Shown: in pieces, positions 15,501-33,892 of the stretch
Numbering within the stretch: position 1 is the stretch's first letter
Layout: every line of letters begins with the position of its first letter
Origin: Sinohyriopsis cumingii
Taxonomy: Eukaryota; Mollusca; Bivalvia; Unionida; Unionidae
NCBI GenBank assembly: GCA_028554795.2
Contig: CM068842.1
Span: forward strand, 22,106,590 to 22,170,589
Direction: 5' to 3'
DNA: 64,000 bases
Translations under genes and position numbers: made by a program
The notes under the pieces: generated by a model
Told to the model about the DNA's origin: nothing
Seen by the model: the letters and a program-made list of their open reading frames with translations, nothing else
The model's database searches: none

Positions 15501-18500
15501 TGAACCAAATACTTCTAGATGCCATTTTTTGCGTGCTGGAAATGAGGATTTGTATAAGAAATTGTAAGATTTTAATACATTAATAAATAGATCTATCTAA
15601 AACAGCTCTAATTTAAATGCCCATGGTCACATTCATTATTATCCAAATCTTAGCCATATTTATGGGCTATAATCACAGTTACCTCACAATACCCCATCCC
15701 ACTAAGTCACAAATAGATTTTGGCACAAAACATGGACATTGAAATAAAAGAACACTGCTATCTCACCTCTGTCTGCGTTGGTTCGAGTCTCAGGCTCGGC
15801 TAGCGTGGGTACGTTGGAAAGCCTGCCAGTAGTTTCTCGTGGGTCGGTGGTTCTTCCCTGGGTTTTCCGGGGTTCTTCCTCCACCACTTATACTGGCCGC
15901 CATGTATAGCCTATCTTGTGCTCAAAAATGGCGTTAAACCCTAGAACAACAAGAACAACAACAACATACCCCTAGTAAAATTAACGTTAAAGACTGGCTT
16001 TAAAAATAGTCGGTTCGGTGTCTATGTTAACGTCAATAAGAGGATCACCTTTTCTAGGCCCGTATGGTCCGTCTGTAATTAGGTCATGGCCGATAACACT
16101 GTCCTGTGTTTGCCTTAGTATAGGATGGTCTTCGTATCGAAAGTAGTAAAGTGGGCCACCCTAGCCTCAATGGGAATTATCATAACAGGGACCCCTGGGC
16201 CACTCTAGCCTCAGTGGAAAATTAACATGGAGAAAAATCGTGGGCCACCCTAGCCTCAATGGGAATTATCATTACAGGGTTTATGTTAATGTATTCATTA
16301 ACATAAAGGGCACCGCATTGGTCTTCTTCTTGTCCTTAGGCTGCGTCTCACTGTTGGCACGTAAATCAGCACTCTTTTCAGGCATTCTTGTCTTTCAACG
16401 TAGATCCTACGTATCCACAGGCTGGTGTTTGTCCTGTGGACAAGGGTCCACTTGGATCGGACATACATGAGCATGTCCGTCCTAAACATTATGGAAGACA
16501 CAAGGGTGGATGACTCAACTGTGGTCCACATCTTGAAGCGACGAGAACAGGTGAATCAATGTAGTGAACTGCGCTTATTTATAGGTACAGGAAGGATTGA
16601 AACGGATTGAGTTCATTCACCAATCAGAACACGCGTTACAAAATTCAGTCAGCCCGCATCCAATCCGAAGAGAGCAGTTTGTTACGTCACGTGGTCTATA
16701 TAGATTCGCTAGCGCTTGTGTGCAGTCAATCTATGCGACAGTGATTCAACATGACGGAAACTCAGAAAACGATCCATTGGGGTGCACAAGCAGGGGAGAC
16801 TGCCCAAGGGAACCCGGACTTACTTTCAGAAGAGGTACATTGGGATTTGTGGATTTTCTTACCTCGCAAGAATTTGTTCCGGAACCTTCGTTACCTTCTT
16901 CATTACCGCAAGTGGAGAATTTTAGACAGAGACAGAAAGAAGAATTGGAGAAATTTATGCAACGACAAAAGGAAGCGGAACAAGCTTTTCTCCTACAGCA
17001 GCAGCAGCAAGAAGAAGAAGAGGTAAGAAAAAAGCAACAGCAACAACAGCAAGAAGAAGTAGCAGCAAAGAAACAAGAGGGTGAAAATCAAACGGTCACG
17101 GTACTGTTGGACATTTTAGCGGAGTTAAGAAGTCTGAAACAAATGTATCAGACTTCTTTATCACGACCGAAGAGAATACGACCTTCCCGAGCTAAACACG
17201 TCAACCCTGTGACTAAGCCTACCGTACCACCCTTAGTGATTTCAACTCAATCATCATCATCAACGTTACGCAGTTCAGAAGTAGGCCTTGGCCGTGGCAA
17301 AGGCTTAAGGCAGTTAAAGTTGATTGGTTAAACTCACCCCTACACCAAAAAAGGCCCTTTTTAGGGCCACCCACATTTCTCGAAAAGAAATACAATTTCA
17401 ATTTGCCAATAACTCAAAAAAAACCCCAAAAACAAACAGCCCATTTTACCCCTATAGTACGTGTCTGTGTATGAGTGCGTGAGTGTCCGTTCTTATTTTA
17501 AAATGATAACTCAAAGACACTTACCTTATATCATTAATTTATTCTTTTCTCCATTGTTACAATCCAATTCACAATTCACAACATAACACTTTAATTAAAC
17601 GTTCATTGACTTCTTCTGTCTCCTTGTTTAGTCTCTCTGTTTTTTTTGAATTTTTTCACCGTCACACGCTTTTCCTCTTCTTCCCCCTCACTTTCTTCCC
17701 TTCTTCTTTTCTTCTCCTGTTTCTTTTTCGTCAACTGTCTTTTTTCTTCCTCAGAAGAATCCCTCTCTTCCTCTGAAGAATCCCTCTCTTCTTCTGAAGA
17801 ATCCTTCTTTTCTTCTGACTCCTCTTGTTTCTTTTTTGGGCAATCTGGAGACCAATGTCCTTTTTCTTTACAATAATAACAGGTATCTTGACTTTTGTCT
17901 TTTTTAGCCCCTGTTTTTGTTCTTTTTTGACGGTCTGGACACTCTGAAGACCAATGCCCTTACTTCTGACAGATATAGCAAGTATCTTGACTTTTATCTC
18001 GAAAGGAAGGAGAGTAGTCCGTCGGCTGGTCTGAAGAGAATTTTCTAATGACCCCTCGCAAAGCTCTGACGAAACGTTCCATCTGGGTAGTCTCTTCCAT
18101 CGTTGTGCTCGGCTTGAGAGTGAGATGAATAGTGAAAGGACAAGACACACACCCTTTTTATATACGCTGGTTTGCCATGACTATAAATTAGTCTATGGTG
18201 TTTAAACTTGAGTCATTTGACGTTTCGCACTCAAGATGAAACGATCCTATTCATTTGAGAAGAAAGAGGAAGAAGAAAGTAAGAGGCAGAAACGTGATCT
18301 ATCGCCTCGTACCAGGGCTGAAATCTTGGCACAAATTCATGCCAGTGATTTTGAAGAGGACATGAGTGAACCAGAATCCGAACCCTCTAAACCAAGTTCA
18401 CCACCCTTAGTCAACCCTGAGAATTACTATTCCATTCGAGAGACGGAAAAGCGCTCCTCTAGAAAATTTAGAACCACGGCTTACACCTACACGGTGAAGT

Positions 18501-33892: not shown

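Follow-up and report, generated by a model that had tools for sequence, protein, structure and literature searches.

Two described systems stand closest to the locus reported here: the Polinton (Maverick) elements with the adintoviruses, and the replication-dependent histone genes of animals, whose 3′ UTR stem-loop is represented by the Rfam model RF00032. Like the Polintons and adintoviruses, the element that we found in a 64 000 nt stretch of the Sinohyriopsis cumingii genome (the window, meaning the whole stretch that was analysed) has terminal inverted repeats (TIRs), a 6-bp target duplication (TSD), polymerase B, an ATPase and an rve-chromo integrase, but it differs in carrying accessory genes with apparent histone-type 3′ ends. 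These genes resemble animal histone genes in the form of the stem-loop, an ACCCA-type flank and a purine-rich element at 13 nt, and also in being short and uninterrupted, in their TATA boxes and in the presence of a divergent pair (L0/A). They differ in that the Polinton proteins are not histones by Pfam, and in being part of an element that is mobile and virus-like. To our knowledge, hardly any genes besides the histone genes are regarded as having histone-type 3′ ends, and we know of no DNA virus or transposon that runs a class of its genes through the host histone mRNA system. No description of histone stem-loops in Polintons was found in the open papers searched, a coverage that leaves out most subscription papers. 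The features of the window element are as follows.

16142-33873, plus strand: Polinton element (TIRs, TSD, core genes)
16298-16531, minus strand: L0 gene, 77 aa, outward-facing (tblastn 92% over 77 aa against a sister copy)
16751-17331, plus strand: A gene, coiled-coil, with an NLS-like PKRxRPSRAK block (tblastn 16751-16912 and 16774-17328)
17353-17368, plus strand: stem-loop of gene A, then ACCCA (pattern, Rfam)
17382-17390, plus strand: GAAAAGAAA, downstream element of gene A, putative U7 target (spacing as in host histone genes)
19661-22270, plus strand: DNA polymerase B, split in two ORFs, 19661-20560 and 20702-22270 (PF03175)
22591-23058: BIR (inhibitor of apoptosis) domain protein, within the element (PF00653, E 5.7e-24)
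24765-25493, plus strand: packaging ATPase (PF04665 Pox_A32)
27721-28830, plus strand: integrase with chromo domain (PF00665, PF00385)
32553-32696, plus strand: 3′ remnant of gene B2, stop TAA at 32694-32696 (tblastn 87% over 47 aa)
32725-32740, plus strand: stem-loop of gene B2, terminal pair A-U (pattern; Rfam 31.1 bits, sub-gathering)
32754-32762, plus strand: GAAAAGAAA, downstream element of gene B2 (sequence)
33040-33075, plus strand: promoter box ATGTTTTCCTTCACGTCCGCG and TATAAGAA of gene C (sequence; extra box copy at 32971-32990)
33114-33464, plus strand: C gene, coiled-coil (tblastn)
33534-33549, plus strand: stem-loop of gene C, then AGCCA (pattern, Rfam)
33563-33571, plus strand: GAAAAGAGA, downstream element of gene C (sequence)

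The duplication ATCGAA stands at both sides (16136-16141 and 33874-33879) and, together with the element ends AGTAGTAAAGTG, sets the limits of the element at 16142-33873. The TIR arms are 131 nt in length and 95% complementary (approximately 16137/16142-16267 and 33748-33873/33878). Membership of the Polintons is borne out by the TIRs and 6-bp TSD, and by polymerase B, the ATPase and the retrovirus-like integrase; no Pfam match to capsid proteins or a protease was obtained among the unassigned ORFs of the window given to Pfam. The named relatives of the integrase, among the 120 of 2023 matches listed, come from oysters and lancelets and show 51-56% identity. The window copy is damaged, and a 45-nt tandem repeat fills much of its right TIR region (33649-33821). 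Elsewhere in the window, a reverse transcriptase fragment is found at 2133-2501 (PF00078), and ARAGORN calls a tRNA-Pro (cgg) at 40203-40275, which scores under the Rfam cut-off and may be a tRNA-like repeat.

A preliminary description of this DNA had placed three histone-like hairpins at 17353, 32725 and 33534. Both a pattern search and Rfam recovered them there, on the plus strand, and they span 17353-17368, 32725-32740 and 33534-33549. With up to two mismatches allowed, the pattern occurred three times in the window against 0.05 expected from shuffled windows. RF00032 matched 17348-17392 at 40.2 bits (E 2.4e-8) and 33529-33574 at 35.4 bits (E 1.4e-6), above the gathering score of 34, and 32720-32765 at 31.1 bits (E 5.8e-5), below it; no other match was found in the window up to E = 1. 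The GAAAAGARA element described 13 nt past each hairpin is likewise in place, starting at 17382, 32754 and 33563, and the 3′ flanks read ACCCA behind A and B2 and AGCCA behind C.

Only two of the hairpins had been assigned to genes. This assignment holds for A and C, but the middle hairpin also lies behind a gene, the broken B2, whose stop is 28 nt ahead of it. The wide gap described between the stop of the right-hand gene and its hairpin is present in the window C (69 nt) but is not general among C genes, since the five length-intact members, window C included, have gaps of 15, 18, 66, 69 and 75 nt. L0 is an additional gene of the same kind, the fourth in the window element; its stem-loop is gone in the window copy, and the reading of the A gene in this copy is spread over two frames. 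The core genes (polymerase, ATPase and integrase) show no histone-type ends.

The host genome, one eukaryote genome of 2.9 Gb in 1138 contigs, was searched with RF00032. Scoring covered 75 of 589472 first-look candidates, and all 75, across many contigs, were over the cut-off; they form an incomplete list, in which host histone ends, which also pass the cut-off, may or may not be present. Every one of the 31 scored matches that were inspected (L002-L009, L010-L029, of which three repeat earlier loci, and six of the lowest-scoring, L061-L066) stood behind small genes of the Polinton family. Chance hairpins were rejected on this 31/31 result in the Polinton gene set and on the excess over expectation in the window. 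The polymerase gene was reached in eight of twenty 8-kb stretches, and several others held right-end genes only.

Hairpins of the form [AG]GCCCTTTT[ACT]AGGGC[CT] were taken from 26 sources, giving 61 units, all of which were assigned to a class by tblastn: 14 L0, 13 A, 8 B1, 11 B2, 10 C and 5 C*. Hairpins <600 nt from the locus start (e.g. L020 minus 411), the minus-strand twin of a palindromic hairpin in L028, and three loci (L002, L005 and L009) that recur as L010-L012, were dropped. As the loci were chosen by their stem-loop matches, these counts tell where hairpins are. Sister copies carry up to five small accessory genes (L0, A, B1, B2, and C or C*). The second family, C*, replaces C at L011, L019, L021 and L062, and the two have the end motif KIRxWxxKWR in common and little else. 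Two sets of Polinton end genes were seen <8 kb apart at three loci, where elements are therefore joined or nested: L015 has two A genes, L017 has two L0 units and L020 has two C genes.

Absence of the hairpins from sister copies had been named in advance as one observation that would count against a histone-type signal. When sequence flanking the hairpin was used to locate A and B units, with at least 14 of 16 letters required to call it kept, the hairpin was kept in 17/17 A units and 25/25 B units. Anchor searches for L0 and C met TIR repeats and other genes and are uncounted.

The accessory genes have a consistent anatomy. The hairpin starts 15-36 nt past the stop in 30 of 34 length-intact genes, and at 66-93 nt in the remaining four. 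TATA boxes lie 46-66 nt ahead of the ATG in four of the five classes: TATAAATA upstream of L0 (11/11 listed copies), TATATAGA upstream of intact A genes (6/7), TATAAATT upstream of B2 (8/8) and TATAAGAA upstream of C genes with the usual start (5/5); none was clear upstream of B1. Upstream of the TATA position, B1, B2 and C genes have in common a box near ATGTTTTCCTTCACGTCCGC, which occurs twice ahead of the window gene C (32971-33075) and also ahead of sister B1 and B2 genes, and which is likely to be a shared promoter element. L0 and A diverge from one short region (16531-16751) with two TATA boxes, an arrangement much like that of divergent histone pairs.

The A and C ORFs of the window gave no histone match in Pfam, so that no histone fold was recognized in them and captured histone genes were rejected as an explanation. 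In an alignment of 13 members, protein A shows conservation of two blocks, PKRxRPSRAK and NWDx[13 protein letters not shown], and from these features it looks like a nuclear regulator. The ratio of mean dN to mean dS was 0.12 for L0, 0.45 for A, 0.58 for B1, 0.21 for B2 and 0.09 for C, with pairs of undefined dS left out (51/55 kept for L0, 8/10 for C), a rough sign of constraint on the accessory genes. The LxCxE motif is absent from the stem-loop-gene proteins, and their basic C-tails (+4 to +10) are not distinctive, as other ORFs of the element share them. A predicted structure of L0 was set aside at a mean pLDDT of 41.6.

Comparison between gene classes separates the signal from its surroundings. 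Mean ungapped identity between classes was 0.88-1.00 in the hairpin, 0.90-0.98 in ACCCA and 0.62-0.85 in the region of the downstream element, against 0.27-0.41 at 61-130 nt past the start of the hairpin. In the upstream interval from 40 to 9 nt ahead of the hairpin it was 0.26-0.32, with C versus C* as the exception (0.51). For most pairs of classes, likeness is limited to the hairpin, its ACCCA flank and the region around GAAAAG. Likeness of the L0, C and C* tails extends over the ~60 nt surrounding the hairpin (identity 0.71-0.79 at 43-60 nt), so that these three look like copies of one another, and B1 and B2 are alike over >100 nt downstream. Because the loci were chosen for their stem-loops and the flanks, too, are conserved within a class, it is mainly the comparison between classes that reveals selection on the hairpin. 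Stem pairing was present in 94.4% of 108 cells from 18 sequences chosen for variety. The compensating A-T for G-C change, previously cited as a sign of selection on RNA pairing, is present and two-sided, but it affects one pair and is a trait of the whole of class B (7/18 sequences), and thus counts as about one event.

The host's own histone 3′ ends, with which a comparison had been proposed, lie in tandem clusters that repeat about every 8.3 kb, as judged from the 150 candidates scored out of 662. Two kinds of end were found in the 30 loci read, AAACGGCCCTTTTTAGGGCCACACAAATGTCTAGAAAAGAGC (30 copies) and AAACGGCCCTTTTTAGGGCCACAAAAAGAACTAGAAAAGATA (29 copies). Both have the same hairpin form as the Polinton genes, and GAAAAG 13 nt past it; among the 61 Polinton units, GAAAAG is at 13 nt in 50 and at 14-15 nt in four, and seven have no exact form. 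The host ends scored 35.9 and 37.7 bits with Rfam. Eleven of 13 L0, A, C and C* copies scored over them, to a maximum of 44.1 bits, and all nine B copies scored under them, at 28-32 bits and below the cut-off. Capture of a histone-gene tail had been offered as an alternative origin; recent capture from the main histone cluster of this host fits less well, given signals on at least five gene families and the 11/13 non-B copies that outscore the two host ends.

Homologues from other sources were found in a large protein set, two for L0 and 20 for A. Two predicted proteins read past the usual end, P0122 of the L0 family with ETQKPFSGPLTLLENIYYVNCQ and P0133 of the A family with QWPISGPPTSLEKRYYVNCQ. 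Compared with translations of the hairpin and downstream element from host units, each tail agreed at 11 of 14 residues, against maxima of 8 and 7 respectively in 60 shuffles apiece; this result beyond the null was obtained with references from the 61 units and the tails alone, and the same tails scored against window references only were within the null. The two tails are alike at 13 of 18 positions (maximum of 8 in 2000 shuffles). It is very likely, from these translated sequences, that the hairpin block stands behind L0 and A genes in another genome too. A search of IMG/VR confirmed no relatives with the polymerase, an integrase alignment or a gene A alignment, and the longer stem-loop pattern had no matches there. 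The one IMG/VR contig with a stem-loop pattern match (L001) has ORFs that are phage-like by eye, and the match was attributed to chance.

The sequence case for histone-type 3′ ends on the Polinton accessory genes is strong. The central proposal of the preliminary description, that genes of this Polinton carry histone-type mRNA ends, is strongly supported at this level by the Rfam matches, by the host-like hairpin and GAAAAG spacing and by retention in sister copies. We consider it probable that each accessory gene family is built like a replication-dependent histone gene and uses host SLBP and U7. The sequences show that the Polinton family carries up to five small accessory gene families, each with an uninterrupted frame and a short 3′ UTR, behind which come the histone stem-loop, the ACCCA flank and, last, a downstream element of GAAAAGA type. 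In the proposed mechanism, drawn by analogy with animal histone mRNA, the stem-loop of the accessory mRNA would be bound by host SLBP, and base pairing of host U7 snRNP with the downstream element would lead to cleavage a few nucleotides past the hairpin; SLBP and U7 are most likely what the Polinton hairpins use. The mRNA would lack poly(A), and its export and translation would be carried by SLBP. Histone-type mRNAs are produced and persist mainly during S phase, so the accessory proteins would be present in cells that are replicating, a time at which the element can be copied. S-phase coupling of the accessory genes would thus follow from the known biology of animal histone mRNA.

On balance, we favour the view that a virus-like lineage has put at least five accessory gene families under the host histone mRNA system, with messages that are non-polyadenylated, made by SLBP and U7 and restricted to S phase. 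If this is true, virus-like elements can take over the histone mRNA pathway, and a Polinton could time itself to host DNA replication. For work on SLBP and U7, the Polinton genes would offer naturally occurring substrates other than histone genes, and genome-wide matches to RF00032 need not mark histone genes.

The likeness of the L0, C and C* tails and of the B1 and B2 tails shows that copying within the element did occur, which lends some weight to another explanation: a histone-gene tail captured once, copied within the element and hitch-hiking without present function. We regard this as unlikely, because the A, B and C/L0 tails resemble one another in the hairpin, ACCCA and the GAAAAG region but not beyond this signal. 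Retention of the hairpin in 42/42 A and B units and of the signal block in outside homologues also argues against a passive tail. The transcripts of mimivirus obey a hairpin rule for their ends, and a comparable mark that the element makes for general termination or polyadenylation, with no part for SLBP or U7, would fit hairpins that stand close behind stop codons. However, it would not call for a sequence, flanks and GAAAAG at 13 nt that fit host histone genes and the Rfam histone model and not just any hairpin, and we judge such a mark very improbable. Still harder to credit is a role of the hairpins as DNA in replication, recombination or packaging at the element ends. The L0 and C hairpins do adjoin the TIRs, but every hairpin is oriented with its own gene, outward-facing L0 included, and the B hairpins are away from the ends.

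Histone-type processing of the Polinton messages would draw on host factors. A search of the host genome for U7 snRNA with Rfam gave one unconvincing match (E 0.27), which was not accepted. One U7 pattern found 12 places and a second found 2, one of them among the 12, and the reversed control gave 3 in either case; the 12 places were read by eye and folded, and none had a U7-like tail or was accepted. The search for host SLBP gave no match, and its control likewise matched nowhere. The host has histone stem-loops of its own and so, we infer, must process them.

Poly(A) signals accompany some of the hairpins. Only 8 of 61 units have AATAAA up to 134 nt past the hairpin. Among A units, 6 of 13 have it in the 50 nt ahead of the hairpin, and several of these read AATAAAAAGG, abutting the hairpin. 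Two human histone genes, H4C11 and H2AC18, are reported to have both a stem-loop and poly(A) signals, and the AATAAA ahead of the stem-loop in the six A units, abutting in several, matches the arrangement described for H4C11 (PMC9756948). The human examples are cellular histone genes, and the Polinton signal is putative and present in some copies only. Polyadenylation is possible at the A units that have this upstream AATAAA.
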